This document shows positions 11,172 to 35,698 of a DNA stretch of 64,000 bases, one piece after another (within the stretch, counting starts at the first letter, position 1; every line of letters starts with the position of its first letter). The stretch comes from Pelomonas sp. Root1237 (GTDB lineage Bacteria > Pseudomonadota > Gammaproteobacteria > Burkholderiales > Burkholderiaceae_C): NCBI RefSeq assembly GCF_001425055.1, contig NZ_LMDK01000012.1, positions 186,001 through 250,000 on the forward strand, read 5' to 3'. Under the pieces are notes generated by a model, which saw only the letters and a program-made list of their open reading frames with translations, made no database searches and was not told where the DNA came from. The translations under genes were made by a program, and so were the position numbers.

Positions 11172-12407
11172 TCACTGTGCTGCCGGCGCTGTCGTGAAAC
11201 CGTCGCTGAGCGTGCGCAGGAAGGCGACAACGTCGGTCACGTCCTGGGCGGTCAGGGCCGGCGGCTGGCCGGCGCGCCGGAAGGGTGCGCCTTGCTGGAC
11301 ATTGCCGTGGTAAAGGGCGGGCAGGTCGTTATAGACCAGGGCCTGTCCGTTGACGGTCGGGTACCAGCGCGCCGGATCGAGGTCACGCGTGGCGTAGAAG
11401 GCGACGGCGTCTTCGAGTGCGGCGAAGCGGGCGTTGTGGAAGTACGGTCCCGTCAAGGCGACGTTGCGCAGCGTCGGCGTGCGGAACATGCCGCACAGGT
11501 CGGCGCGGCCAGCGAGGTCGCTGCGGGCGCACAGGCCGAGATCGAAGAAGGCCGGATTGGCGGTGGCCTGGCTCTGGTTGCGCGGCACGCCGAGGGCGTG
11601 ATAGCTGAAGTTGGTGAACAGGGCGCGGTTCAGGCCTGGCTGGATTTGAACAGGCCGGCTGTCATGGCAACTGGCGCAGTTGCCGCGCTGCGGGTCGTTG
11701 AACAGATTGAGGCCGCGCTGCTCCTGGGCGGTGAAGGTGGTGCGGCCGTCCTGGACCGCGTCGAACTTGCTTGTGAACGGATGGAACCTGGCGTCATCGG
11801 CCTGGTAGCGGGCGAGTGCGGTGACGGCGGCGTCGACCCACTGGTTGTCAGTCGCGGCGGCCGGCAGATTGGCTGCGGCACGCAGGTCGGCCGAATAGGG
11901 CAGGGCGCGCAACCGGGTTGCCAGCGCGGCGACGTCGGCATTGGCCATCTCGTCAGCATTGAACAGTGGCCCGCGCGCCTGCTCGCTGCGGTTGTTGGCG
12001 CGGCCATCCCAGAACAGCCCGCCGCGCGGCCGGCCCTGGGCGTCAAACCCAAAGGCGCCGGCCTGATCGAGGTAACGAGCGCTGGGCGAACTGCGCAGGC
12101 CCTGGTGGGTGCCGTCGGCACCACCCAGGGGCAGGAAGCTGCCGGTTGCATCCGAATGGCCGCGCGCCTCGACGTGGCAGCTGGCGCAAGCCAGCTTGCC
12201 GCTGGCGGAGAGGCTGACCTCCTCGAACAACCGGTCGCCGACCTGGGCCAGCGTCGGCACGGGAACGGGCGCTGGCAAAGGCGTGCGGGGTGGGCGCTGG
12301 GCGGCGGCATCGGCGCTGGCGTCGGCAGCGGCGCCGCCAGCGCCGCCGCCGCAGCCAGCGAGCAGGCAGAGCAGCATTGCGGGCAGCAGGATGTGGCGGG
12401 CGGGCAT
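11172..12407 (-). CDS. Di-haem cytochrome c peroxidase / MauG-family lipoprotein
   Basis: ATG at 12407 is preferred over the ATG at 12428 because AAGGAG lies seven bases before it. The 411-residue product starts with a lipoprotein signal (LLCLLAGCGGG), then a low-complexity Ala/Pro linker. Two haem c motifs are present: CASCH in the N-terminal domain and CASCH in the second domain. The block FRTPTLRNVALTGPYFHNARF is typical of bacterial di-haem peroxidases and MauG-like enzymes, as is the final DVVAFLRTL. It would act in the periplasm, either reducing peroxide or oxidising a substrate. It is divergent from the two-component genes at 12512, which may control it. Confidence 0.9.
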   Translation of the reverse strand: MPARHILLPAMLLCLLAGCGGGAGGAAADASADAAAQRPPRTPLPAPVPVPTLAQVGDRLFEEVSLSASGKLACASCHVEARGHSDATGSFLPLGGADGTHQGLRSSPSARYLDQAGAFGFDAQGRPRGGLFWDGRANNRSEQARGPLFNADEMANADVAALATRLRALPYSADLRAAANLPAAATDNQWVDAAVTALARYQADDARFHPFTSKFDAVQDGRTTFTAQEQRGLNLFNDPQRGNCASCHDSRPVQIQPGLNRALFTNFSYHALGVPRNQSQATANPAFFDLGLCARSDLAGRADLCGMFRTPTLRNVALTGPYFHNARFAALEDAVAFYATRDLDPARWYPTVNGQALVYNDLPALYHGNVQQGAPFRRAGQPPALTAQDVTDVVAFLRTLSDGFTTAPAAQ

Positions 12408-12468
12408 GGCGGTCTCCTTCGTTGGCATGCCGCGAGCTTCCCGGCCGAGCGTGGGCCCAGCATGGAGA

Positions 12469-14782: not shown

Positions 14783-14873
14783 GCCCAAGTGACCCATCAT
14801 GGGCTTTCTGTCCCCATTCCGGGAAAACCAGACTGCGCCTGCAATTGAATCCTCCGCCACATTGGGATATTGT

Positions 14874-14887
14874 TGACAGCGTTGTCT
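14874..14887. promoter_or_regulatory. LacI-family-like operator candidate 1
   Basis: TGACAGCGTTGTCT fits the pattern TGnnAnCGnTnnCA of LacI/GalR-family operators at every fixed position except the last base. It overlaps a TTGACA hexamer, so a bound repressor would block a promoter there. Confidence 0.4.
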
Positions 14888-14930
14888 ATTTGAATTGACC
14901 CGCAGATCGATGTGCTCTTGGCAAGGATGC

Positions 14931-14944
14931 TGAGATCGCTACCA
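14931..14944. promoter_or_regulatory. LacI-family-like operator candidate 2
   Basis: TGAGATCGCTACCA keeps all fixed positions of TGnnAnCGnTnnCA. Its right half CGCTACCA is identical to that of candidate 3, 205 bases downstream, which argues against chance. Confidence 0.4.
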
Positions 14945-15135
14945 AAGCTCATCCCCGATGGTTGCGCGCAAGCGCACGATTCGCTGTCCGGCCACCCCGG
15001 AAAGAGCTGCTTTCGCAGGTGTTGTTGATTGCGCACACGGCAAGATCAACTCGCGTAAACCCCAGGAGTCATGGGGAGGCCAAAACGTACAGTACGCAGG
15101 CGCCTGCAACGGGCACTCTCTTTTTTGAGGAGTGC

Positions 15136-15149
15136 TGGTAACGCTACCA
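15136..15149. promoter_or_regulatory. LacI-family-like operator candidate 3 (near-perfect palindrome)
   Basis: TGGTAACGCTACCA has complementary TGGTA and TACCA arms around a CG centre, the standard form of a LacI/GalR-family operator. It lies 74 bases before the receptor's ATG at 15223, within the expected leader or promoter. LacI-family operators of this form control sugar-uptake TonB receptors in Caulobacter and Xanthomonas relatives. No lacI-type gene lies in the window. Confidence 0.6.
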
Positions 15150-15222
15150 AGTGCTGGCATCAGTGGGCCATAGAGTCGTCATCAATCGGCGCTACAGCCG
15201 CTTAAAGCAAGTAAGGAGACAA

Positions 15223-18200
15223 ATGAAACACCCTCAGATTTCCAAAGTTCGGCGTGGTCCCGTGCGGTCCATCCGGCTCAAGCCCGTTGCGTGGGCCTCG
15301 TCGATCGCGTTGCTCACGGGTGCCGCGGCCGTGCATGCCCAGCAGGCTGGCGCTGCGGCACCTGCATCTGCGGCGTCGGCTGCTGCCAACTCCCTGGAGA
15401 CCGTGGTCATCACGGGTATTCGCCGGTCCCTTGACAGCGCTGTCACCCTGAAGCGCGATTCACGCGGCTTGGTCGATGGCATCGTGGCCGAAGACATCGG
15501 CAAGTTCCCGGACACCAACCTCGCCGAGTCGATGCAGCGCATCGCCGGCGTGTCCATCGACCGGAACATGAGCGGTGAAGGCTCGCAAGTCACCGTTCGC
15601 GGTGTCGGCCCCGCATTCAACATGGTGCTGCTGAACGGCCGGCAGATGCCGACCTCCAATCCCTCCGGTAATGCCGGCCGCGCCTTCGACTTTGCCAACC
15701 TGTCCTCCGACGCAGTTTCCGCGCTGGAGGTGTACAAGACCGCGCGAGCCTCGTCGCCGACGGGCGGTATCGGCGCCACCATCAACGTCAAGACGGCCCG
15801 CCCGCTGGATGTGCGCGAAACCATCGCCAGCATCGGCATCAAGGCCAACTATGACGAGTCGATCGGCCGCCTGCCGGGCGAGATTGCGGGCTCGAAGGTC
15901 ACGCCAGAAATCTCCGGCATCTACAGCACGTCCTTCGGGGACCGCACGCTCGGCATCTCGATCAGCGGCAACTACTCGAAGCGCAATTCGGGCTCCAACA
16001 ACGCCTTCACTGGCAACGGTTGGCAAACTCAGCCGATTACGAACGGTGCCGCCGGTACGGCGTATGACGGTGTTCCGGCCGGCAACCTGAAGAACTTCCC
16101 GACCAGCGGCTATGTGACGCACACGAATGACGTGCGTTACCGCGTGACCGATCTGGAGCGCGAGCGCATCAACGGTCAGGCCGTTCTGCAGTTCGCCCCG
16201 ACGAAGGAACTGAAGTTCACGCTGGACCACACGATTGCCATCAACGCGACCAAGCAGAACGCCATTGAGAACTCCTCCTGGTTCGGCCCCTCGTATTCGG
16301 GCCCGTTGAATGGCCAGCCGCCCACGACCTTCACCGCCACGGGTCAGGTCTACGACCCGATCATCCAGACGGCCACCTGGGACGGCACGCACGACTTCGC
16401 GATGTACGCTGCCCAGCAGGCGGTCAAGACCAAGCTGAACTCCACCGGGTTCAATGCGGCATGGAAGGTCAGCGAGAAGCTGAACATCGATCTCGACGCT
16501 CACCATTCGACGTCCCGGACCAATCCGGACAGCCCTTATGGCGACACCAACGTCATTGACCTGGCAATGTTCAACCAGGGCAACACGACGATGTACTACG
16601 ACCAGAAGTTCCCGGTCATGCAGTCGCCCGGCTTGAAGTACGACTCCAGCAAGACCACCGTCACGGGCTCGCAGTTCACCAACAACATTTCCTATCAGGA
16701 CGTCGATCAGGTCCAGGCCAGCGGCACCTACAAGCTCAGCGCCGACGACAAGCTGCTCGCCGGCCTCGGTTTCACCAAGCTGAAGAATCGTTCCGCCGGC
16801 TCGAACAACTTCCACGGCGACTGGGGTGGCATCGGCCCGCAAGGCTCGTTCAAGGACATGACCGTCGCCCAGTACAACATCGCCAGCTTCTACGGCCGGA
16901 TTCCTGGCAGCAGCGACGCGCGCCAGTTCCCGACGTTCTTCGTGCCGAACTTCGACCAACTGCGTGCGCAGGCCGTCAAGAACGCGCAGTCGTATCGTCC
17001 GACGTCGCTCCCGCCGGGCAATCCGCTGAGCGCGGCGGAGGCAGATGCCTACTTCAAGCCGTATACCGACTTCACCAACGGCAACGATTGGCGCACCACC
17101 GAGAAGTCGACCGCGGCCTACGGTCAGTGGGACCACTCGTTCGACACGTCCATCCCGATGAACCTGTCGGTCGGTCTGCGCTATGAGCAGACGAAGATCA
17201 CGTCCTCGTCACAAGTCACCTCCTACAACGCCACCACCTGGTATGCGGAAAACGAGGTGAGGCTCGATGGCGCAACCACGACCTTCGGTACCAAGGACGG
17301 CAAGTACAGCTATTGGCTGCCCAGCATCGACTGGGATGCCGACCTGACGTCCGATATCAAGGTGCGCGCGAGCTACGGTGTCAACATCGGTCGCCCGAAC
17401 TTCGGCGACATGCTGGGCGGTGTCGCTCTGAACGCGAACTCGGGCCGCTACAACATCCACGGCGCCGGTTCGACCGGTGACCCGGCACTGAAGCCGCTGA
17501 AGTCCAAGAACTTGGACCTGTCTGCTGAGTACTACTACGCCAAGTCGTCGTATGTGGCAGCGGGCGCCTTCTACAAGAAGGTATCCGACTTCTTCACCAC
17601 GAAAACGGTTCAGCAAACGTTCGCCGGCCTGAACCAGCCTGCCAGTGGCACGTATTTCGACGCTGCCCGGGCGTCGGGTATTCCTGCTGACAGTCCCAAG
17701 CTGCTGCGCAACTACATCTTCAAGAACTACAACGGCCAGCCGGGCGTCACGGTCACCGATGCCAGTGACCCGAACTTCCTGAAGGGCAACATTGCGGGCA
17801 CGGTCCCCGGCGCCCAGCCGCTGATCTTCGACATCACGACGCCGTCCAATGCCGGTGGCGACAACATCAAGGGCCTGGAGTTCAACTTCCAGCACATGTT
17901 CAGCACCAGTGGCTTCGGCGTCTCGGGCAACTACACGCTGGTCCGCAGTGGCCTGAAGTACCGCAACGACGCGTCAAGCACCGATGTGCAGTCCCCTCTG
18001 GTGGGTGTCAGCGATTCCGCCAACGTGGTGGGCTTCTACGAAAACGACCAGTGGTCGATTCGTGCCGCCTACAACTGGCGCGATTCGTTCCTCTTGGGTA
18101 ACGACAACGGCAACAACCCGCGGTACACCGAGGCCTATGGTCAGGTGGACGCGTCCATCGGCTACAAGATTGGCAAGAACCTGACCCTGCAGGCCGACTT

Positions 18201-18312
18201 GCTGAACTTGAACGATGGCTACATCCGCACCCATGGCCGCAGCAAGAACGAGATCATCTCCGCGATCCAGACGGGCCGCCGTTACCTGGTCGGTGCTCGC
18301 TATCGCTTCTGA
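15223..18312 (+). CDS. TonB-dependent receptor, Caulobacter/Xanthomonas type
   Basis: ATG at 15223 is chosen because AAGGAG precedes it and it gives a standard long signal peptide ending AAVHAQQ; the frame is open further upstream. The 1029-residue product has a Ton-box-like start (LETVVITGIRRSLDSAV), a plug domain with EDIGKFPDTNLAESMQRIAGVSIDR and VTVRGVGPAFNMVLLNGRQMPT, and a large beta-barrel ending in aromatic YLVGARYRF. These features match the TIGR01782-type subfamily, whose known members often import carbohydrates. It is followed by a hairpin and then by the halogenase operon on the same strand. Operator-like sites upstream suggest induction by its ligand. Confidence 0.95.
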   Translation: MKHPQISKVRRGPVRSIRLKPVAWASSIALLTGAAAVHAQQAGAAAPASAASAAANSLETVVITGIRRSLDSAVTLKRDSRGLVDGIVAEDIGKFPDTNLAESMQRIAGVSIDRNMSGEGSQVTVRGVGPAFNMVLLNGRQMPTSNPSGNAGRAFDFANLSSDAVSALEVYKTARASSPTGGIGATINVKTARPLDVRETIASIGIKANYDESIGRLPGEIAGSKVTPEISGIYSTSFGDRTLGISISGNYSKRNSGSNNAFTGNGWQTQPITNGAAGTAYDGVPAGNLKNFPTSGYVTHTNDVRYRVTDLERERINGQAVLQFAPTKELKFTLDHTIAINATKQNAIENSSWFGPSYSGPLNGQPPTTFTATGQVYDPIIQTATWDGTHDFAMYAAQQAVKTKLNSTGFNAAWKVSEKLNIDLDAHHSTSRTNPDSPYGDTNVIDLAMFNQGNTTMYYDQKFPVMQSPGLKYDSSKTTVTGSQFTNNISYQDVDQVQASGTYKLSADDKLLAGLGFTKLKNRSAGSNNFHGDWGGIGPQGSFKDMTVAQYNIASFYGRIPGSSDARQFPTFFVPNFDQLRAQAVKNAQSYRPTSLPPGNPLSAAEADAYFKPYTDFTNGNDWRTTEKSTAAYGQWDHSFDTSIPMNLSVGLRYEQTKITSSSQVTSYNATTWYAENEVRLDGATTTFGTKDGKYSYWLPSIDWDADLTSDIKVRASYGVNIGRPNFGDMLGGVALNANSGRYNIHGAGSTGDPALKPLKSKNLDLSAEYYYAKSSYVAAGAFYKKVSDFFTTKTVQQTFAGLNQPASGTYFDAARASGIPADSPKLLRNYIFKNYNGQPGVTVTDASDPNFLKGNIAGTVPGAQPLIFDITTPSNAGGDNIKGLEFNFQHMFSTSGFGVSGNYTLVRSGLKYRNDASSTDVQSPLVGVSDSANVVGFYENDQWSIRAAYNWRDSFLLGNDNGNNPRYTEAYGQVDASIGYKIGKNLTLQADLLNLNDGYIRTHGRSKNEIISAIQTGRRYLVGARYRF

Positions 18313-18370
18313 GCGATGAGCACCGCCGCCCGGTAAACGCCCCTCGGGGCCGTTCGCCGGGCGACCCAGA

Positions 18371-18415
18371 TTGGCCGAGGCGGGCGCGCAACGCCCACCT
18401 CGGCCAAATTTCCTT
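18371..18415 (+). terminator. Strong hairpin with weak T-run between the TonB receptor and the halogenase operon
   Basis: Arms TTGGCCGAGG and CCTCGGCCAA, extended inward by GGGCG/CGCCC around a CGCAA loop, form a stem of about 15 pairs, followed by ATTTCCTTT. It lies 58 bases after the receptor stop and 57 bases before the halogenase start. The T-run is interrupted, so it may be a partial terminator or a 3'-end stabiliser that keeps receptor mRNA above that of the downstream genes. Confidence 0.6.
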
Positions 18416-18472
18416 TCAGAATTCCTCGGCCTTTGCGGCGTGCCCGGCACCCGCACGGCCATACTTTGCGGG

Positions 18473-20035
18473 ATGAGTTCCGAGGTGACGACAGCCGTTC
18501 GACGTATCGTGGTGCTGGGGGGAGGCTCGGCCGGTTGGTTGACGGCTGCGACCCTGGCGGCGGAACTGGGCGGTGACGGCCCCGACGCGCTGCAGATCAC
18601 GCTCATCGAATCCCCCGACGTGCCCTCCATCGGCGTGGGCGAGGGCACCTGGCCGACGATGCGCGCCACGCTGCATCGCATCGGCCTCAGTGAAGTCGAC
18701 CTGATCCGCGAATGCGACGCAGCCTTCAAGCAGGGCTCCTGCTTCGACGGCTGGCTGTACGGCGGTGCCGGTGATCGCTACTACCACCCCTTCACGTTGC
18801 CTCACGGCCATGGCGAGGCCGACCTGGCAGGCGCATGGCTGCAGGCGGGCGGCGAGCACGCGTTTGCCGAAAGCGTGGGTGCGCAGCCGCATGTGTGCGA
18901 CGCACGCCTGGCGCCCAAGCAGACGACGACGCCGGACTTCGCCGGCGTCCTCAACTACGGCTACCACTTCGACGCTGTCAAGCTCGGCCATCTGCTGCGC
19001 CGTCATGCGACGACGGTGCTCGGCGTTCGCCACATCGTCGATCACTTCGTCGCCGTGCGTTCGCACGAGAACGGCGACATCGCGGCGCTTGCGACCCGCG
19101 AGCACGGCGATCTCGAAGGCGATCTCTTCATCGACTGCTCCGGCATGGCCAGTTTGCTGCTGGGCCAGCACTACGGCGTCGGCCTCCGATGCCAAAAGGG
19201 CGTCCTCTTCAACGACAGCGCACTGGCCGTGCAGGTGCCGCATGCCGATGCCAAGGCGCCGCTCGCATCGGCCACCATCTCCACAGCCCATGCCGAGGGC
19301 TGGACGTGGGACATCGGCCTGCCCACGCGGCGCGGCATCGGCTTGGTGTTTTCAAGCGGCCATACCGACGATGCCGCCGCCGAGCGCGCGCTGCTGGGCC
19401 ATCTGCAGCGCAACGGGCTGTCGCTGGGCGACGCAACGCCACGCCGGCTCAGCTTCAGCCCCGGCTACCGCGAGCATTTCTGGCATCGCAACTGCGTCGC
19501 CGTTGGGCTGTCTGCCGGCTTCATCGAGCCGCTGGAGGCGTCCGCGCTGGCGCTGGTCGAACTGTCGGCCGCGATGATCCGCGACGAGATGCCTGCCAAT
19601 CGCGCCGACATGGACCTCGTCGCCAAACGCTTCAACGAGGCCTTCGCCTACCGCTGGTCGCGCATCATCGATTTCCTGAAGCTGCACTATGTGCTGAGCC
19701 GCCGCGACGACGCGGACTACTGGCGCGAGCACCGCAGCGCAGCGACGCAACCCGAGTCGCTGCGCGAACTGCTGCAGCTCTGGGCTCACCGCGCGCCGTC
19801 GCGCAACGACTTCTATCGCAACGAAGAGGTCTTCCCCGCCGCGAGCTACCAGTACGTGCTCTATGGCATGCATTTCAAGCCCGCGCTGCGGGCCCCGCGT
19901 GCCGACCAGCGGACCCAAGCCGAAACCGGCCTCAAGGACGTGACGACAATCACCCGGCGGTTGCTGGGCGGCCTGCCCCGCCACCGCGATCTCATCCAAC
20001 ACATCCGCGAGCACGGCATGCCGCCGGCCGCTTGA
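18473..20035 (+). CDS. Tryptophan-halogenase-family flavoprotein (first copy)
   Basis: ATG at 18473 is chosen as it puts the FAD-binding motif GGGSAGW at residues 16-22; the frame is open further upstream. The product is 520 residues, the normal length for the family. Lys86 in FKQGSCF corresponds to the catalytic Lys (K79 in PrnA). The block GVGEGTWPTMR replaces the usual GVGEATIPTL. The WxWxIP signature is altered to WTWDIGLP, and EPLES becomes EPLEA. FAD-dependent halogenases use reduced flavin, O2 and halide; with these changes, halogenation is uncertain and another oxidation is possible. It is first of four tightly spaced genes. No flavin reductase gene is nearby. Confidence 0.88.
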   Translation: MSSEVTTAVRRIVVLGGGSAGWLTAATLAAELGGDGPDALQITLIESPDVPSIGVGEGTWPTMRATLHRIGLSEVDLIRECDAAFKQGSCFDGWLYGGAGDRYYHPFTLPHGHGEADLAGAWLQAGGEHAFAESVGAQPHVCDARLAPKQTTTPDFAGVLNYGYHFDAVKLGHLLRRHATTVLGVRHIVDHFVAVRSHENGDIAALATREHGDLEGDLFIDCSGMASLLLGQHYGVGLRCQKGVLFNDSALAVQVPHADAKAPLASATISTAHAEGWTWDIGLPTRRGIGLVFSSGHTDDAAAERALLGHLQRNGLSLGDATPRRLSFSPGYREHFWHRNCVAVGLSAGFIEPLEASALALVELSAAMIRDEMPANRADMDLVAKRFNEAFAYRWSRIIDFLKLHYVLSRRDDADYWREHRSAATQPESLRELLQLWAHRAPSRNDFYRNEEVFPAASYQYVLYGMHFKPALRAPRADQRTQAETGLKDVTTITRRLLGGLPRHRDLIQHIREHGMPPAA

Positions 20036-20051
20036 TTCCCAGAGCCCATCC

Positions 20052-20747
20052 ATGCCGCAACTGCTCAACAACATCCAGCACAAGGACCTGCGCGTCATCA
20101 CCCAGCGCGGCGCGAAGTGGGGGGACGACATCATGTCGGCGCCCGTCACGGTGGACGAGTTCCGCAAGCTCCAGGCGCATTACCCCATCGTCTTCCAGAC
20201 TGACGGCAAGGGCGGCTTCGCGCCGGCGGCGCTGTTCGGCCTGCAGGAGGGGGAGAACCTGTTCCTGAACGAGCAGGGCTGGGATGCCGACTACCTGCCG
20301 CTGTCCGTGCAGCGCCTGCCGTTCTCCATCGGCATCGCCGATGACGAGCTGCGCATGATGGTCGACATGGACAGCAAGCGCGTCAGCCCGGGCGCCGAGG
20401 GTGAGGCCGTGTTCCTGCCGCATGGCGGCACGACCGACTTCACCGAGAACGCGAACTCCGTGCTGCGCACGCTGCACGAGGGCCTGCAGACGACGACCGA
20501 CTTCGTGCAGACGCTGACGCAGCACGAGCTGCTGGAGTCCTTCGTGCTCGACGTCGAGCGCCCGGACGGCTCGCGCGGCCAGCTGGTGGGCTACTACATC
20601 ATCCACGAGGAGCGCCTCGCCGCGTTGGACGCCAGCACCGTCGGCCTGCTGCACCAGGCCGACTACCTGCAGCCTATCTACATGGCCATCGCGTCGCTGT
20701 CCAACTTCACCAAGCTGATCAAGCGCCACCTCGCACGGGAGGTCTGA
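20052..20747 (+). CDS. SapC-family protein
   Basis: A 231-residue soluble protein 16 bases after the first halogenase. The pattern AKWGDDIMSAPVTVDEFRKLQAHYPIVF near the N-terminus and LFGLQEGENLFLN and YLPLSVQRLPFSIG further on are typical of the SapC family (PF07277), named for a Campylobacter S-layer-linked gene. The biochemical function of SapC proteins is not established. They recur next to tryptophan-halogenase-like genes and TonB receptors in Proteobacteria, as here. No signal peptide is seen, so it probably works in the cytoplasm with its neighbours, perhaps as partner or substrate carrier; this is inference. Confidence 0.88.
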   Translation: MPQLLNNIQHKDLRVITQRGAKWGDDIMSAPVTVDEFRKLQAHYPIVFQTDGKGGFAPAALFGLQEGENLFLNEQGWDADYLPLSVQRLPFSIGIADDELRMMVDMDSKRVSPGAEGEAVFLPHGGTTDFTENANSVLRTLHEGLQTTTDFVQTLTQHELLESFVLDVERPDGSRGQLVGYYIIHEERLAALDASTVGLLHQADYLQPIYMAIASLSNFTKLIKRHLAREV

Positions 20748-20752
20748 GCAGG

Positions 20753-21736
20753 ATGTTGGAGCGCAGTGATGTGAGCGCCGAAGCGATCCCGGCAGACGTG
20801 CTCCAGTCCACCCAGCCCGTGCTGATGCGCGGCTTGGTCGGGCGCTGGCCGCTGGTGCAGGCCGCGCAGCGGTCCGACGCCGATTTTTGCGACTACCTGC
20901 GCGGCTTCGGCGCCGACACGCGCCTGGCCCTCTGGCGCGGCGCACCGGAGATCGGCGGGCGCTTCTTCTACAACGCCGACTTCACCGGCTTCAACTTCCG
21001 GCACGAGACCCACACCTTCGGCGCGCTGCTGGACGAGCTGCTGGCCGGCACGCCGGACGCCCTCTACCTCGGCTCCACCGGCATCGACCACTGCTTTCCC
21101 GGCCTGCGCCCGCCCAACGACCTGCCTGCGCTGGCGCCCTTCAACCCGCATGCGAGCATCTGGCTGGGCAACCGCATGCAGGTGGCCGCGCATTTCGACC
21201 TGCCCGACAACATCGCCTGCGTCGTCGCGGGCCGGCGCCGCTTCACGCTGTTCCCGCCCGATCAGGTCGCCAACATCTACATCGGCCCGCTGGACCTGAC
21301 CCCCGCCGGCCAGCCGATCAGCCTCGTCGACCACGCGCGGCCCGACCTCGTGCGTTTCCCGCGATACGCGCAGGCGCTGGAGCATGCGCAAACCTTCGAG
21401 TTGCTGCCAGGCGATGCGCTCTTCATCCCCAGCCAGTGGTGGCATGGCGTGGAGTCGCTGGAGCCCATCAGTGCGCTCGTCAACTTCTGGTGGCGGCAGT
21501 CCCCGGCCTTCATGGACGAGCCGATCAACACGCTGTTGATGGCCCTGCTATCACTGCGCGACCTGCCACCGGCCCAGCGCGATACCTGGCGCGCGCTGTT
21601 CAACCACTACGTCTTCGACGCCGATGAACAGACGGCGGCCCACATCCCGCCCGCCGCGCGCGGCATCCTCGCGCCGATGACCGACAACAGCGCCCGCCAG
21701 CTGCGCTCGATGCTGCAGAACCGACTCAAACGATGA
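20753..21736 (+). CDS. Cupin-like / JmjC-type Fe(II) oxygenase domain protein
   Basis: A 327-residue protein starting five bases after sapC. It has the Cupin_8 (PF13621) pattern: YLGSTGI, then SIWLGNRMQVAAHFDLPDN with His147 and Asp149, VAGRRRFTLFPPD, and LPGDALFIPSQWWHGVES with His231. The His-x-Asp...His set is the iron triad of 2-oxoglutarate-dependent dioxygenases; family members hydroxylate proteins or small molecules. The stop overlaps the start of the second halogenase by 4 bases. A protein or peptide substrate is the likeliest choice from family knowledge, but nothing here fixes it. Confidence 0.9.
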   Translation: MLERSDVSAEAIPADVLQSTQPVLMRGLVGRWPLVQAAQRSDADFCDYLRGFGADTRLALWRGAPEIGGRFFYNADFTGFNFRHETHTFGALLDELLAGTPDALYLGSTGIDHCFPGLRPPNDLPALAPFNPHASIWLGNRMQVAAHFDLPDNIACVVAGRRRFTLFPPDQVANIYIGPLDLTPAGQPISLVDHARPDLVRFPRYAQALEHAQTFELLPGDALFIPSQWWHGVESLEPISALVNFWWRQSPAFMDEPINTLLMALLSLRDLPPAQRDTWRALFNHYVFDADEQTAAHIPPAARGILAPMTDNSARQLRSMLQNRLKR

Positions 21737-23991
21737 GCTCATCCACGACCATGACCACCGCTCCCAAACCCATCCGTCGCGTCGTCATCGCCGGTGGCGG
21801 CACCGCCGGCTGGATGGTGGCCGCGGGCCTGTCGAAGTGCCTGGGCAAGCACTACGACATCCGCCTCGTCGAGTCCGAGGAGATCGGCACCGTTGGCGTT
21901 GGCGAGGCGACGATCCCGACGCTGCACATCCTGCACGAGATCCTGGACCTGGACGAGCGCGAGTTCATCCAGGCCACGCAGGCCACGTTCAAACTCGGCA
22001 TCAGCTTCGAGAACTGGCGCAACGTCGGCGAGAACTACTTCCACTCCTTCGGCAAGACCGGCAAGGGTCACTGGACGGCCGGCTTCCACCATTTCTGGCT
22101 GGAAGGCCGCAAGCGCGGTCTGGCGAGCGACTATGGCGACTACTGCCTGGAGCTGCGCGCCGGGCTGGACAACCGCTTCGCGACGCTGCCCGACAACGGC
22201 ATCAACTACGCCTATCACTTCGATGCGACGCTCTACGGCCAGTACCTGCGCCGCTTCTCCGAAGCGCTGGGCGTGCAGCGCATCGAAGGCAAGATCGCCA
22301 AGGTCCACACCGATGCCGCCAGCGGCGACATCACCGGCCTGCAACTCGATGGCGGCGCGCTGGTCGAAGGCGACTTCTTCATCGACTGCACCGGCATGCG
22401 CGCATTGCTCATCGGCGAGACGCTGGGCGTGCCCTACGAGAGCTGGTCGCACTGGCTGCCCTGCGATAGCGCCCTGGCCGTGCAGACCACGCTGGTCGGC
22501 GAGCCCGTGCCCTACACCCGCGCCATCGCCCACCCCTGGGGCTGGCAGTGGCGCATCCCGCTGCAGCACCGGGTCGGCAACGGCGTCGTGTTCAGCAGCA
22601 AGCACATCAGCGACGACGACGCGAAAGCGGCGCTGCTCGCCAACATCGAGGGCGAGGTGCTGCGCCAGCCGCGTGTCATCAAGTTCACGCCCGGCCAGCG
22701 CGAGCAGGTCTGGAAGAAGAACTGCGTCGCCATCGGCCTGGCCAGCGGCTTCCTGGAGCCGATTGAATCCACCAGCATCCACCTGATCCAGAAGGGCCTG
22801 ACCCGGCTGATCGAGCTGTTCCCGACCGACGGCGTGCGCCAGAGCGACATCGACGAGTACAACCGGCAGACGCAGGAGGCGATCGAGGTCGTGCGCGACT
22901 TCATCATCCTGCACTACCACGTCAACAACCGCACGGACTCGGCCTTCTGGCGTGACTGCTGCGAGATGGATGTGCCGCCGCTGCTCAAGCACCGCATCCA
23001 GCATTTCCGCGACACCGCCCGCATCATGCTGAACCAGGGCGAGCTGTTCGCCGAGAACTCCTGGGTGCAGGTCATGATGGGGCAGGGCATCACGCCTGCC
23101 AGCCACCACCCCATCACGCGCAACATGGACAACCGCAACCTCGCGGAGTTCCTCGGCGACATCCGCAAGGACGTGGCGCGCACGCTGATGAAGCTGCCAA
23201 AGCACCAGCAGTTCATCGACGGCTTCTGCCCCGCACCCAAGCTCGACCTGGTCACGAACAAGCCTGTCGTCGGCCCCGAGCTGCGCATCAACCCCAACGC
23301 TCGTCTGGAGACGGTGCAGCTGTCCAACGGCGCGACGGTCTACGTGGTCGACGACTTCGCGCAAGACCCCGAGGCCCTCCTGGCGCTCGCCCAGGCCCAG
23401 GCCGGCCAGTTCGAGGCGCCCGCGGGCCATCCCTATCCCGGCCCGCAGCTGGCACTGCCGGACGGCATCGCCGGCGCACTGGGGGGCTATTTCGAACAGC
23501 ACCTGCGCCCCCGGCTGGGTGCCGGCCCGGGGCTGGGCATGTTCGGCCGCTTCTCGCGTGTCACCCAGGACGCCACGACGCTGGACCCGCGCCAGCGTAT
23601 CTGCCACCGCGACGACTCCGCCATCGGGCCGGGCGAGGTGATCTCGGCATCCGTGCACTACCTGTTCAAGGACGAGCAACTGGGGGGCACCGTGTTCTTC
23701 CGTTCGCTGATGTCCGACGCCGAGACGCGCCAGTTCATGCGCGACTCCAACACGCTGAACGGCAGCGCCTTCAGCGACAAGTACGGCATCGCGCCTGGCT
23801 ACATGACCGAGAGCAACCGTTACTTCGAGGTCATCGGCCGGGTGCCGGCCAAGTGGAACCGTGCCATCTTCTACAGCGGCAGCATCTTCCATACCGGCGA
23901 CATCAACTGGCCCGCTGCCAAGGCCGGCTACCAGACCGGCATGGGCCGCCTCACCATCAACGCCTTCTTCAAGAGCCGCCGGCCTGCCTAG
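21733..23991 (+). CDS. Tryptophan-halogenase-family flavoprotein fused to a DUF6445-like putative Fe(II) oxygenase domain
   Basis: A 752-residue protein, about 240 residues longer than a normal halogenase. Residues 1-500: FAD motif GGGTAGW (21-27), GVGEATIPTL (55-64), Lys87 in FKLGISF equivalent to PrnA K79, WQWRIP at 272-277, and EPIES at 342-346, all canonical. From about residue 515 a second domain begins (LSNGATVYVVDDFAQDPEALLALA), with His625-x-Asp627 in CHRDDS, His720 in FHTGDI and a conserved Arg739. This set fits a 2-oxoglutarate/Fe(II) dioxygenase fold and resembles the stand-alone DUF6445 proteins that neighbour halogenases elsewhere. The frame is unbroken, so the fusion is real in this sequence. 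It overlaps the preceding gene by ATGA and ends the operon. Confidence 0.88.
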   Translation: MSSSTTMTTAPKPIRRVVIAGGGTAGWMVAAGLSKCLGKHYDIRLVESEEIGTVGVGEATIPTLHILHEILDLDEREFIQATQATFKLGISFENWRNVGENYFHSFGKTGKGHWTAGFHHFWLEGRKRGLASDYGDYCLELRAGLDNRFATLPDNGINYAYHFDATLYGQYLRRFSEALGVQRIEGKIAKVHTDAASGDITGLQLDGGALVEGDFFIDCTGMRALLIGETLGVPYESWSHWLPCDSALAVQTTLVGEPVPYTRAIAHPWGWQWRIPLQHRVGNGVVFSSKHISDDDAKAALLANIEGEVLRQPRVIKFTPGQREQVWKKNCVAIGLASGFLEPIESTSIHLIQKGLTRLIELFPTDGVRQSDIDEYNRQTQEAIEVVRDFIILHYHVNNRTDSAFWRDCCEMDVPPLLKHRIQHFRDTARIMLNQGELFAENSWVQVMMGQGITPASHHPITRNMDNRNLAEFLGDIRKDVARTLMKLPKHQQFIDGFCPAPKLDLVTNKPVVGPELRINPNARLETVQLSNGATVYVVDDFAQDPEALLALAQAQAGQFEAPAGHPYPGPQLALPDGIAGALGGYFEQHLRPRLGAGPGLGMFGRFSRVTQDATTLDPRQRICHRDDSAIGPGEVISASVHYLFKDEQLGGTVFFRSLMSDAETRQFMRDSNTLNGSAFSDKYGIAPGYMTESNRYFEVIGRVPAKWNRAIFYSGSIFHTGDINWPAAKAGYQTGMGRLTINAFFKSRRPA

Positions 23992-31696: not shown

Positions 31697-34600
31697 TCAA
31701 CGCGGGCTGCGCAGCGTCATGCCCACCATGTAGCGGCGGCCGTTGTAGCCATCGCCATAGATGCTGGGAATGCCGTCGGCATAGTCTTGATAGCCGCCCG
31801 TCGTGGTCTGCGTGCGCTCCCCGGTGAGGTTGCGGACGTCCGCGAACAGCTCCAGGCCGTTCTTGAACCGATAGGAGACCTTGGCGTCAATGAAGGCGGT
31901 GCGGCTGCCGAAGATGGGGGCGCCCGGGTTGTAGCTCGTCGGTGCGCCGCGGAAGCTGGTGCCGATGGACGGGAAGTTGTTAACGCCCACGCTGGTTCCG
32001 GTGTTCGGCGTGAACACGAAATAGCGCGCGGCCACCACCTGCATCGCCACGCGGGCCTGGAAGCCGCCGTCGTCGTACCACAGCGAGGCATTCCACGAAT
32101 ACTTCGGCTCGTTGACGACCGGCAGGATTTCGCCGCTGATGAGGTCCAGCGTCGGCGCGCCCTGGGTCGAACGCACGCGGCTGTAATTGGCGTCCACGCC
32201 GGTGTAGCGCAGGATGGACGGCAGGAAGGTGAAGGCGGTCCTCACGCCAAGCTCCAGGCCGCGGCGGGTCGACGCCGGGGCGTTGTCCCACTGGGCGAAC
32301 GAGAAGTCGATGTCCTTCAGCGGGGTGCCGGTGATCGGGTCGACCGCATTGCTGGTGGCGAACACCTTGTTGTTGTTGCGGAAGACGCCGATGGTGGGCG
32401 CTCCGATCAGGCCCTTCTGGCGGAAGACGCCGACCGACACGCTGGTGTCGCGATTGGCATACCACTCCAGCGACAGGTTCTGGTTGACGTTGGTCTGCGG
32501 CTTCAGCGCCGGGTTGCCGAGCGTGCCCGAGCAGCCCTGGTCGGGGGCACTGTCGTCCGGATCGGCTGATTCCTCCACGATCTGGCTGTTGGAGCAGACG
32601 ACGTTGGTGCCGCCCGAGGGCAGCAGCTTGGACACCGGCGGGCGGGCGATCGTCTTGCCGAGGGAGTAGCGCAGCGCGACTTTGTCGACGACGGGCCACA
32701 GCACCAGGTTCAGCGAGGGCATCACGTCGGTCGACTTGGCCTCGACCGATGCGTTCTGCGAGAAGGTGTTCGACACGAAGCCGGCGGGGGCCGTCGGGTT
32801 GTTGATATCGAAAGCGGCGGTTTTGCGCACCGAGCGGAAGGTCAGGTAGCCGGTGCCGGTCACGTCGGTCTGCACCACGCGCACGCCGAAGTTGCCTGCC
32901 AGTTCCATACCGAAGGGCAGGGCCCAGTTCGTGAACGGCACGCGGTCGATCTCGAAGTCCGTCATCAGATAGGCGGCCTTGGACTTCTCGGTGAACTTGG
33001 TCATCGGCATGTCGTAGACCTTGCCGTCGCTGGCCGTGCAGGTGCGGAAGCAGTCCAGACGCACCGGGATGCCGGCAAGCTGGAACATCTTGTCGACGTC
33101 GAGCTGGTTCCAGCCGTCGATCAGCGTCGCCGGGCGGTCCTTGGAGCCGCCGTAGAACTGGCCGGCCGGGGCCATGGTCAGCGTCTGGCGGATCAGTTCT
33201 TCGTACTGCGCCTTGGTGAACGTGTTGGTGCCCGCCACCACGCTGCCGGTGCCGTTGTTGAGCTGGTTGTTGGGGATGTAGCCGTAAGCGCAGGGCTGGC
33301 CGTTCGCGGCCACGGAGCCGGCGGTGTTCTCGCAGCCGATGACGTTCCAGCGCGTGTTGACGCCGGGCATGTACACGCCCGGCACGAAGCCGGCCGTGCC
33401 GAAGGTGCCGACCGGGTCCTTGATCGTGCCGCCGGCGCCGCTCCAGGTGGTGCCGCCGGTGTCTCGGTAGTTGAGGCCGCCCTTCAGCGAGGTCAGGAAG
33501 GGCACCTTGTCGACCAGGTTGTAGGCCAGGTCGACCTTGCCGGTCTTTTCGGTGCTCTCGGTGTCGAAGGAGCGGATGACCAGCAACTGCGTGTTGTTGG
33601 TGTACTGCGCGCGCTGGGCGGCCGTGTAGGCCGGCACCGAGACCGGGTTGGTCGCCGAGGCCGGGAAGGCGGCCAATGGCGCGGCCGGGTTCAGCGTGGA
33701 ATAGAGCGGGAAGTTGAGTTGCTCGTTGTTGTTGCCATTGGGCAGCGTGAACGACCAGATGCCATTGGGCTGCAGCGCGAAGTTGCCGATGCCGTACACA
33801 TAGCTGACGGAGGCGCGGCGGTCATAGCGCATCGCGGTGGACTTGGTCGAGCCGCCCATCGCCTGCACGCTGAGGCGGTCGCTCTTGTATTCGCCGCCCA
33901 GGATCAGCGTCTTCGAATCGGTGTCGATGCTGCTGAAGATGGTGTCCGTGCCAAAGGAGCCGTTGTTGGTCGAATAGCTCGTCAGGTGATGCGAGGAATC
34001 GACCGTGTAGCCCGGCAGCACGTTGGTCGTCGTGCCGAGCACCAGCGGCGCATTGTTGGCGCGGAAGGAGTACGAGTTGGGCAGCAGCGAGGCAACGGCG
34101 CTCTGGCCCGCCGTCAACGAGCGGACGTTGGTGGTCGTGTTGTCGGTGAAGGTGCCAGCGGGATTGAAGGCCGTGTTGCTGCCCACGCCGAGGAAGCCGA
34201 CGATGTCGTCGACATGGCGCTTGTTGAGGCTGAGCTTGCTGTAGACGGTCAGCTGATCGTTGACCTTGAAGTCCAGCCGCACGTCGCCGCCGGTGCGCTT
34301 GTCGTCCTGGCTCTTGAAGTTGTAGCGAAAGCCCGCCGTTTGCGAGGGCGAGTAGTCATTCCACTGGTTCAGGCAGGTGATCTGCTCGTTCTGGCGCTGC
34401 GTGTAGGCCGCAGTGCGGCCAGCGGCGACCATGAGGTTGGTCTGGGCCGTCGTCAGATTGGGGAAGGTGGTGAAGCAGTCGGCCTTGGTCTGCGCTGCGG
34501 CTGACTTGGTCAACAGCTCCAGCGGCGTGGAGGCGTTGAAGTTCCCGCCGGCGATCAGCGGCGTGATCTGCATCGGCGTGTTGATGGTGTCGCCGTTGGC

Positions 34601-35446
34601 CGTCGCCGGGTTGAAGGTGAAGGTCTTCTCTGGCGAGCCGTCGAAGTCGCCCAGGCGCACCAGGCCCTGCTGGTTGTTGCTGCCGCCCTGCGTGACGCCG
34701 TGCTGCTCGCTCTTGTAACGCGACTTGTTCAGGTTGACGATTACCCCCAAGCGCTTGTCCAGAAACTTGTCGGCCAGCACCAGGTTGAAGTTGGGCGTGT
34801 TCTGCTTGTTCAGGTCGCTCTGCGTGGCGGCGGCGCGGAACGAGTAGAAGGGCTTGTCGAAGTCCAGGCCGGTGCGGGTCGTGATGATGATGCCGCCGCC
34901 GAGCGAACCTTCCGTCATCGCGGCCGTGGAGCCCTTGATGACGTCGACGCTCTTGATGAGGTCGGAAGACAGCTCGCGGAACTCGGTGCCGCGGCCGTCG
35001 CCGCCGCCCAGCAGGTCGGTGCCGGCGCCCGAACGCACGGCCATGCCGTCCATTTCGACGCGGGTCAGCTCGGGGCCGTTGCCGCGGATGGACACGTTCA
35101 CACCTTCGCCGAAGTCGCCGCGGTCCAGCGCCACGCCGGCGATGCGCGAGATGGCCTCGCCGATGTTGCGGTCAGGAAAGGCGCCAACGTCCTCGGCCAC
35201 GATGGAGTCCTGGGCCGTGGCCGCATGCTTCTTGCGGTTGATGCTGGACTGCTGCGACTGGCGCGTGCCGACCACCAGCACGGTTTCAAGTTCCTGCACC
35301 GGGGCGCCTGGCTTGCGCGCCGCCGGCTTGGCGTCTTCGGGCTTGGCGCCGTCGCCGCTTTGCTGGGCGAGGGCGGATTGCTGGGCCATCAGGGCCAGGG
35401 CCATGGAAACGGCGGTTGCCACCGCAGGCTTGCTGAACTTGTTCAC
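31697..35446 (-). CDS. Large TonB-dependent receptor
   Basis: GTG at 35446 is chosen because GGAGAAG lies a few bases upstream and it yields a signal peptide ending SALAQQ; the frame is open 61 codons further. The product is 1249 residues, well above the usual 700-1050. The Ton-box region ELETVLVVGTRQSQQSSINRKK is followed by a plug with EDVGAFPDRNIGEAISRIAGVALDR, VSIRGNGPELTRVEMDGM and GSLGGGIIITTRTG. The long barrel ends in aromatic-poor MVGMTLRSPR, which is unusual because most barrels end in Phe or Trp. Extra length lies in extended loops of the barrel. The ligand is unknown. The Sel1-repeat gene follows directly downstream. Confidence 0.93.
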   Translation of the reverse strand: MNKFSKPAVATAVSMALALMAQQSALAQQSGDGAKPEDAKPAARKPGAPVQELETVLVVGTRQSQQSSINRKKHAATAQDSIVAEDVGAFPDRNIGEAISRIAGVALDRGDFGEGVNVSIRGNGPELTRVEMDGMAVRSGAGTDLLGGGDGRGTEFRELSSDLIKSVDVIKGSTAAMTEGSLGGGIIITTRTGLDFDKPFYSFRAAATQSDLNKQNTPNFNLVLADKFLDKRLGVIVNLNKSRYKSEQHGVTQGGSNNQQGLVRLGDFDGSPEKTFTFNPATANGDTINTPMQITPLIAGGNFNASTPLELLTKSAAAQTKADCFTTFPNLTTAQTNLMVAAGRTAAYTQRQNEQITCLNQWNDYSPSQTAGFRYNFKSQDDKRTGGDVRLDFKVNDQLTVYSKLSLNKRHVDDIVGFLGVGSNTAFNPAGTFTDNTTTNVRSLTAGQSAVASLLPNSYSFRANNAPLVLGTTTNVLPGYTVDSSHHLTSYSTNNGSFGTDTIFSSIDTDSKTLILGGEYKSDRLSVQAMGGSTKSTAMRYDRRASVSYVYGIGNFALQPNGIWSFTLPNGNNNEQLNFPLYSTLNPAAPLAAFPASATNPVSVPAYTAAQRAQYTNNTQLLVIRSFDTESTEKTGKVDLAYNLVDKVPFLTSLKGGLNYRDTGGTTWSGAGGTIKDPVGTFGTAGFVPGVYMPGVNTRWNVIGCENTAGSVAANGQPCAYGYIPNNQLNNGTGSVVAGTNTFTKAQYEELIRQTLTMAPAGQFYGGSKDRPATLIDGWNQLDVDKMFQLAGIPVRLDCFRTCTASDGKVYDMPMTKFTEKSKAAYLMTDFEIDRVPFTNWALPFGMELAGNFGVRVVQTDVTGTGYLTFRSVRKTAAFDINNPTAPAGFVSNTFSQNASVEAKSTDVMPSLNLVLWPVVDKVALRYSLGKTIARPPVSKLLPSGGTNVVCSNSQIVEESADPDDSAPDQGCSGTLGNPALKPQTNVNQNLSLEWYANRDTSVSVGVFRQKGLIGAPTIGVFRNNNKVFATSNAVDPITGTPLKDIDFSFAQWDNAPASTRRGLELGVRTAFTFLPSILRYTGVDANYSRVRSTQGAPTLDLISGEILPVVNEPKYSWNASLWYDDGGFQARVAMQVVAARYFVFTPNTGTSVGVNNFPSIGTSFRGAPTSYNPGAPIFGSRTAFIDAKVSYRFKNGLELFADVRNLTGERTQTTTGGYQDYADGIPSIYGDGYNGRRYMVGMTLRSPR

Positions 35447-35698
35447 GTGTCTTCTCCGCGCTCCGGTGGGGTCCCGGGCTTGTTGTGGGTCGGTCGCTGC
35501 GGGCCGGAAAGAGGGGCTTTTGCACCGCCTTCCCGGGCCGCGGCGCGACCTTAAGCAGCCGCCGTAACTCGGAGAAATTCGTTTTGTCTCGTTTGCTATC
35601 CCGAAAAGAAATACCGGGCCCAGAAACACTGGTTAACCCGAGGAAGCGAATAGAAACAGTCACGGCCGTGATTGGCCGCAGCGCCCTCGGCGCGTTTC

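Follow-up and report, generated by a model that had tools for sequence, protein, structure and literature searches.

A 64,000-nucleotide stretch of the Pelomonas sp. Root1237 genome (hereafter the window) carries a gene for a TonB-dependent receptor (TBDR) followed by genes for a tryptophan halogenase-family flavoprotein (HalA), a SapC protein, a Cupin_8 protein and a second halogenase-family flavoprotein (HalB). The module formed by these five genes is real, widespread and strongly conserved. Its conserved core is a co-linear unit of the receptor, SapC and at least one halogenase; a second halogenase, a Cupin_8 oxygenase and DUF6445 accompany this core in varying combinations. In relatives, the units are found mostly beside sugar-utilisation genes and behind LacI-type operators. 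We tentatively interpret the set as a LacI-regulated oxidative tailoring module dedicated to one lineage of carbohydrate-type TonB receptors, in which the receptor precursor itself would be modified, an interpretation that falls slightly short of an even chance.

An earlier note on this DNA, made from the sequence alone, had listed operator-like sites, a TonB receptor, a hairpin, two halogenases, SapC and a JmjC/cupin-like protein, with gaps of 16, 5 and -4 bases. All were found again, and the open reading frames and spacing of the set (window 14873-23991) match: 16 bases separate HalA from SapC and 5 bases SapC from Cupin_8, while Cupin_8 and HalB overlap by 4 bases. The "four flavin/Fe(II) enzyme-type genes" of that note are in fact three enzyme genes plus SapC; the number four stands for the catalytic-type domains, since a DUF6445 domain, absent from the note, is fused to HalB. 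Families were assigned by Pfam and NCBIfam model scores. The features of the set are as follows.

14873-14888, no strand assigned: predicted LacI-type operator 1, TTGACAGCGTTGTCTA (symmetric-pattern enrichment and counterparts in relatives)
15136-15149, no strand assigned: predicted LacI-type operator 2, TGGTAACGCTACCA (exact once in the genome, counterparts in relatives)
15223-18312, + strand: TBDR, TIGR01782, with a signal-type N-terminus (family match, AlphaFold2 (AF2) model)
18327-18407, + strand: two stem-loops between receptor and HalA (folding energy against shuffles)
18473-20035, + strand: HalA, Trp_halogenase-family flavoprotein, 2pyx-like, with its ATG start codon at 18473 (family and PDB match)
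20052-20747, + strand: SapC, PF07277 (family match, AF2 model)
20753-21736, + strand: Cupin_8, JmjC-like Fe(II)/2-oxoglutarate (2OG) oxygenase with H147-x-D149...H231 (family, motif)
21733-23991, + strand: HalB, Trp_halogenase domain (residues 16-466) fused to DUF6445 (family match)
23293-23970, + strand: DUF6445 domain of HalB, HxD (H625, D627), H720 and R739 (2OG-oxygenase-type signature)

Conservation and composition of the gene set

A first survey was selected by HalA and comprised 80 loci from named genomes (the best 80 of 585 relatives). The 68 loci with at least 3.4 kb to the left and at least 4.5 kb to the right of HalA were evaluated. The receptor lies immediately upstream in 63 of them, SapC is present in 65, Cupin_8 in 63 and HalB in 62; the complete strict arrangement is present in 56. 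Several of the 12 incomplete loci are rearranged (L109, L110) or were missed by the gap filter (L064). Judged by title, the loci come from Burkholderiales, Xanthomonadaceae/Lysobacteraceae, Steroidobacter, Colwellia/Alteromonadaceae and Cellvibrio-type genera.

The second survey was selected by the SapC family (PF07277) and was therefore blind to halogenases; a receptor scoring above 400 bits was taken as set-type. In the class sample, SapC was identified in 50 of 370 genomes. Among the 66 SapC loci outside the Root1237 genome, 13 carry a set-type receptor together with a halogenase and none such a receptor alone; 2 have only the halogenase, and 51 have neither. In the phylum sample, SapC is present in 138 of 397 genomes. 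Here the 40 best-scoring new loci were retained, a selection enriched for sets because the ranking profile was built mostly from set SapCs; 38 contain both receptor and halogenase, one (L223) has an opposite-strand receptor with SapC and DUF6445 but lacks a halogenase, and one on a short contig (L203) contains halogenases without receptor. Taken together, 51 of the 52 SapC-selected loci with a set-type receptor include a halogenase, as do all 50 in which the receptor is adjacent on the same strand. A random association of the gene set is rejected by both the HalA- and the SapC-selected surveys, and the linkage of receptor and enzymes proposed in the earlier note, for which such a neighbourhood survey had been suggested, is strongly supported.

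The enzyme complement varies. With A for HalA, B for HalB, C for Cupin_8 and D for DUF6445, the combinations beside a same-strand receptor in all surveys (n = 121, with counts biased towards A by the HalA-selected loci) are ABC (69), BC (16), ABCD (15) and A (8), then AC (5), BCD (5), AB (2) and BD (1). The SapC-selected loci (n = 50) give BC 16, ABC 14, A 8, ABCD 6, BCD 4, AC 1 and BD 1. Cupin_8 or DUF6445 without a halogenase was found in none of the 121 loci.

The receptor shows Plug and barrel regions and scores 606 bits with TIGR01782 (cut-off 310; model positions 1-868 of 868). Its AF2 model has a pLDDT of 81.3 and a pTM of 0.77. Set receptors fall in one clade (node support 0.59) containing 69 of them plus four receptors labelled as other; all four sit in HalA-carrying loci, and that of L064 is a true set receptor. 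The distance matrices of receptor, SapC, Cupin_8 and HalB correlate (mirror-tree, r 0.79-0.88, 104 loci), a comparison uncontrolled for species phylogeny and given no weight.

The Root1237 genome itself contains about 15 strong halogenase matches (two on very short contigs) and a few weak ones, 20 TIGR01782 receptors over the cut-off, and 3 SapC, 5 Cupin_8 and 3 DUF6445 matches. By their coordinates, 9 of the 15 strong matches have a TIGR01782 receptor no more than 5 kb away. The control genome, Caulobacter vibrioides, likewise gives matches to TIGR01782, SapC, Cupin_8 and the halogenase family. Contig C4 carries a second set in the same order (TBDR, HalA, SapC, Cupin_8, HalB) without DUF6445, with 60% (HalA), 47% (SapC) and 61% (HalB) identity to the window proteins. 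One set per receptor is seen in several genomes: two sets in the present one, and three loci each from genomes G516 and G635.

Predicted operators and sugar context

Operator 1 fits the symmetric pattern WTGACARCGYTGTCWW. With at most one mismatch, this pattern has 18 strand-counted matches in the genome and its reversed control 3; when as many as three mismatches are tolerated, operator 1 is not enriched in the genome (45 matches against 40 for the control). The pattern occurs exactly at three places in the genome: in front of the window set, before a GH1 (glycoside hydrolase, GH) gene that comes shortly after a LacI gene, and at divergent LacI/MFS (major facilitator superfamily) gene starts. 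Since it recurs at GH1 and LacI/MFS genes, the inducer may be of the beta-glucoside or beta-glucan type. A one-mismatch match at 15431-15446, inside the receptor gene, is probably coincidental because it lies on the codons of the receptor LDSAVT motif. Operator 2 is found exactly only at the window locus, and a one-mismatch copy (C20:115769) precedes a further TIGR01782 receptor; with no more than two mismatches allowed, it has fewer matches in the genome than the reversed control (12 against 59).

Both operators have counterparts at similar positions in three of the five close relatives with upstream sequence (L037, L039, L105). L038 shows a weaker counterpart of the first only and L065 neither. 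More generally, LacI-type palindromes of four specificity classes, with at most two mismatches, precede 55 of 69 set receptors, a descriptive figure since the classes were derived from the same upstream regions; in the controls, such palindromes appear in 3 of 1380 upstream regions after shuffling and in 0 of 72 regions within receptors. LacI control of the set may be sugar-responsive: operators are conserved, and the GH1 locus and the LacI/MFS locus have them too. Co-regulation of the five genes, as previously proposed, is supported at the sequence level by the gene spacing and the conserved LacI-type operators.

In the 102 genes upstream of set receptors the most frequent families are GH16 (17), LacI (15), polysaccharide deacetylase (11), GH30 (6) and GH3 (4), and in the 102 neighbours of 29 other loci they are GH3 (11), MFS (10), LacI (8) and GH16 (6). 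The 89 downstream genes show no dominant family; within their top 25 families no inner-membrane, aromatic-catabolic or biosynthetic family recurs, apart from MFS_1 in 5. The C4 set directly adjoins LacI, GH16-CBM6 and GH18 genes. No glycoside hydrolase or sugar transporter is found among the ten window neighbours scanned, and to this extent the statement of the earlier note that the locus is not a plain sugar-utilisation operon holds. However, the surroundings of the C4 paralogue and of the relatives, and the recurrence of operator 1 at sugar-utilisation genes, argue against extending it to the gene set as such. The set shares its TIGR01782 receptor, its LacI-type operators and, in relatives, its GH or sugar-transporter neighbours with the TonB-receptor carbohydrate utilisation loci of Proteobacteria (e.g. 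PMC1790865). It differs from them by the addition of halogenases, SapC and 2OG-type oxygenases, and at the window by the missing GH among the ten neighbours; halogenase, SapC and cupin do not occur in the main text of PMC1790865.

The encoded proteins and their relatives

HalA and HalB match Trp_halogenase (PF04820) with 387 and 625 bits (cut-off 21). Both carry the features that define flavin-dependent halogenases (GxGxxG, WxWxI(P), catalytic Lys and Glu) and may be assigned to these enzymes: HalB has WxWxIP, Lys87 and Glu345, while HalA has WxWxIGLP and EAS replacing EST. The catalytic Lys and Glu are kept at 97% or more in 82 HalA and 71 HalB sequences. The substrate of a flavin-dependent halogenase has to be electron-rich and is, as a rule, aromatic.

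The best PDB match of HalA is 2pyx (E 6e-164), an unnamed "tryptophan halogenase" that resembles it down to the EAS motif; passages of PMC7336383 refer to this deposited structure as unpublished work and give no function for it. HalB matches best 6y1w (E 4e-210), which is Xcc4156 (PMC7336383), followed by 9luq and, third, 6frl, which is BrvH (E 2e-139). Xcc4156 and BrvH have WxWxIP and the catalytic Lys and Glu in common with HalB but lack the fused DUF6445 domain. According to the available parts of their descriptions (PMC7336383, PMC5945002), native substrates are stated to be unknown, the substrate site is open, peptides are suggested as possible substrates, and BrvH-type enzymes brominate free indole in vitro; TonB receptors are not mentioned in those parts. 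A functional analogue may be QhpG, a flavoprotein of halogenase-like fold and the peptidyl-Trp dihydroxylase of quinohemoprotein amine dehydrogenase, which is described in part of PMC7876137 as hydroxylating peptidyl Trp in the cytoplasm before export. The likeness is limited to function: with 25.4 and 29.2 bits, HalA and HalB match the QhpG model NF049967 weakly and fall below its cut-off of 240.

The DUF6445 domain at the HalB C-terminus scores 209 bits. The HxD, the distal H and the R align in the window domain and 11 further sequences (in-frame sequences only for this alignment and for the later counts, two out-of-frame rows being left out), and by this motif the domain appears to be of the 2OG-oxygenase type. 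Cupin_8 scores 222 bits with its family, and its HxD...H metal triad (H147, D149, H231) is present in at least 95% of 79 sequences. Its best PDB matches are FIH (E 8e-16) and JMJD5-type protein hydroxylases. It shares with these JmjC hydroxylases the core region and metal triad; unlike them it is bacterial, only the core aligns, and the lysine of the FIH GYKRC stretch aligns with an arginine.

SapC scores 224 bits (PF07277) and yields a confident AF2 model (pLDDT 94.4, pTM 0.89). A fold search of this model in PDB and BFVD returned nothing below E 0.05, and its profile nothing below E 0.4 among PDB sequences. Stand-alone SapC genes, without receptor or halogenase nearby, are found at L021 (9723-10556) in addition to those of the class sample. 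They may hold the key to SapC function.

Candidate substrates

Sequence inspection indicates a signal peptide on the receptor and none on HalA, SapC, Cupin_8 or HalB. The enzymes would consequently have a cytoplasmic protein as their substrate, the likeliest candidate being the receptor precursor that is still to be exported. Halogenation or hydroxylation of aromatic side chains would fall to HalA and HalB, and hydroxylation of other side chains to the Cupin_8 and DUF6445 domains, with SapC keeping the substrate in place or presenting it. Residues altered in this way would be found along the outer ligand-binding rim, where they would adjust the capture of sugars. A more detailed version, a dedicated receptor-maturation system, is somewhat unlikely: in it, SapC would guide the halogenases and the Fe(II)/2OG oxygenases to chosen residues of the precursor in the cytoplasm, which they would halogenate or hydroxylate, and HalB would act on the rim residue W534.

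The earlier note had left open whether the enzymes act on the ligand, on the receptor or on another protein; we infer that the evidence leans to protein modification, with the receptor precursor favoured over the sugar. Beta-glucan-type sugars have no aromatic group for a halogenase, halogenases as a rule need aromatics, and the enzymes are predicted to be cytoplasmic. In several genomes, moreover, each receptor has its own set, and the sets go together with a single receptor clade, which places the receptor first among candidate proteins. The FIH/JMJD5-type matches of Cupin_8 would favour a protein substrate, as would the open site, suggested for peptides, of Xcc4156, the nearest structure to HalB. 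QhpG, a flavoprotein whose action on peptidyl Trp takes place in the cytoplasm and precedes export, may serve as a precedent (PMC7876137, in part).

Some receptor residues vary with the enzymes. Three Trp residues (W353, W414, W952) show no variation across 72 receptors of the set lineage. Position 534 is Trp in 107 of 108 receptors with HalB and in 3 of 13 without (n = 121; Fisher 2e-11, uncorrected for phylogeny), and position 952 is Trp in 110 of 110 receptors with Cupin_8 and in 6 of 11 without. Placed by strand order in the AF2 model, positions 353, 534, 673 and 952 presumably lie next to loops on the outer side. As proof of receptor modification the residue-enzyme correlation was nevertheless rejected: striking for W534 in the 72 receptors and still strong by count in the 121, it is phylogenetically confounded and has exceptions.

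Several points weigh against the receptor precursor as substrate. The tree shows only 3 changes of HalB and 4 of W534, other receptor columns associate with HalB as strongly as W534, and at least L060 and L186 keep W534 without HalB. The HalB-less receptors belong mostly to one group, and the residue of L093 at W534 depends on the alignment. The W534-HalB link is therefore confounded by phylogeny and is a lead rather than evidence of modification; conserved Trp residues at the outer rim are equally expected as sugar platforms. Locus L223 combines SapC, DUF6445 and an opposite-strand receptor with no halogenase. SapC has another role too, because 51 of the 66 class-sample SapC genes stand alone. 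Finally, it would be unusual for a barrel protein to be modified while still unfolded and ahead of its export.

Alternatively, the receptor could import an aromatic-bearing or aromatic-linked glycan or another aromatic ligand, which the cytoplasmic enzymes would oxidise or halogenate so that it could be used or detoxified. The operon structure and the sugar-type regulation do link the enzymes to uptake, BrvH-type enzymes act on free indole in vitro (PMC5945002, in part), and differences in the ligand could equally explain why receptor residues differ with the enzyme combination. However, the GH16, GH3, GH30, GH1 and GH18 neighbours point to plain beta-glucans and chitin-type sugars without aromatics, and, MFS_1 apart, the top families of the downstream genes offer no recurring inner-membrane or aromatic-catabolic partner. 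Modification of the ligand is considered unlikely.

It is quite improbable that the enzymes act on some other protein, for example a secreted glycoside hydrolase or SapC, and that the receptor is only co-regulated with them. The arguments for a protein substrate (FIH/JMJD5, Xcc4156, QhpG) would apply here as well, and glycoside hydrolases are frequent neighbours; yet their families vary or, as among the window neighbours, are missing, whereas the receptor is the constant partner, and SapC also occurs without the enzymes at the stand-alone loci.

Least probable of all is a halogenated small molecule (indole or a signal) made or inactivated by enzymes whose regulation is merely shared with sugar uptake: it has family precedent in the bromination of free indole in vitro (PMC5945002 and PMC7336383, in part), but the set contains no scaffold-making or export gene, none recurs in the top 25 families downstream, and this reading would not account for the enzymes being constantly paired with SapC and a single receptor lineage. 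A secondary-metabolite cluster was likewise discarded for want of a recurring biosynthetic family in those 25 families.

In the open-licence literature no paper was found that joins a tryptophan halogenase, SapC and a TonB-dependent receptor; DUF6445 is not mentioned there, and no description was found of receptor halogenation or hydroxylation as an outer-membrane protein modification. The gene set suggests an as yet undescribed kind of chemical modification, acting on either the receptor or its cargo. Its conserved tie to one receptor lineage and to SapC provides a short, testable substrate list for halogenases of the BrvH/Xcc4156 type. If the receptor is indeed modified, bacteria would use halogenation or hydroxylation to tune their outer-membrane transporters chemically, and peptide chemistry would gain natural protein halogenases. 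Even with an unmodified receptor, the survey delineates a widespread module whose composition varies, together with a SapC family that has no known fold.

Other features of the window and the genome

The 151-nt gap between TBDR and HalA (18313-18463) folds into two main stem-loops (-85.2 kcal/mol, z = -5.96, 0 of 200 shuffles equally stable). It matches no Rfam family at the gathering threshold, and the stem-loops are not among the sites listed by a simple terminator scan; they are a possible attenuator or stability element. The length of the gap varies widely among loci, from about 0 to at least 250 bases. For this reason a small peptide gene in the gap, as a substrate of the enzymes, was set aside, no systematic search having been made.

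On its 5' side the set is preceded by genes for a two-component system, a CCP_MauG-family protein and a phosphoenolpyruvate (PEP) carboxylase, and on its 3' side it is followed by porphobilinogen deaminase and HemX-type genes. The CCP_MauG-family di-haem peroxidase gene lies on the opposite strand (11172-12428). MauG is a Trp-modifying enzyme. This gene was dropped as a further partner because it is apparently not kept adjoining the set in L039 and L105, where the next model 5' of the receptor is on the minus strand and PEP-carboxylase-sized (932 and 928 aa), with no CCP-sized model between. A second TIGR01782 receptor of the window (31697-35629, 1310 aa open reading frame, 393 bits), without halogenases, adjoins a Sel1-repeat protein gene and a RelA/SpoT gene.

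Two further loci of the genome contain related genes. L015 (7274-18414, contig C8), which has no SapC, encodes DUF6445, a receptor, two Cupin_8 proteins, a halogenase and a second TIGR01782 receptor, and is a different composition of the same kinds of genes. L012 (6718-15687, contig C20) is a receptor locus with two halogenases, GH1, PfkB, LacI and MFS_2. A peptide methionine sulfoxide reductase gene is located between its halogenases and its TIGR01782 receptor, and a GH2-type gene lies beyond the receptor. The presence of a repair enzyme beside the halogenases would fit protein oxidation or a hypohalite leak.

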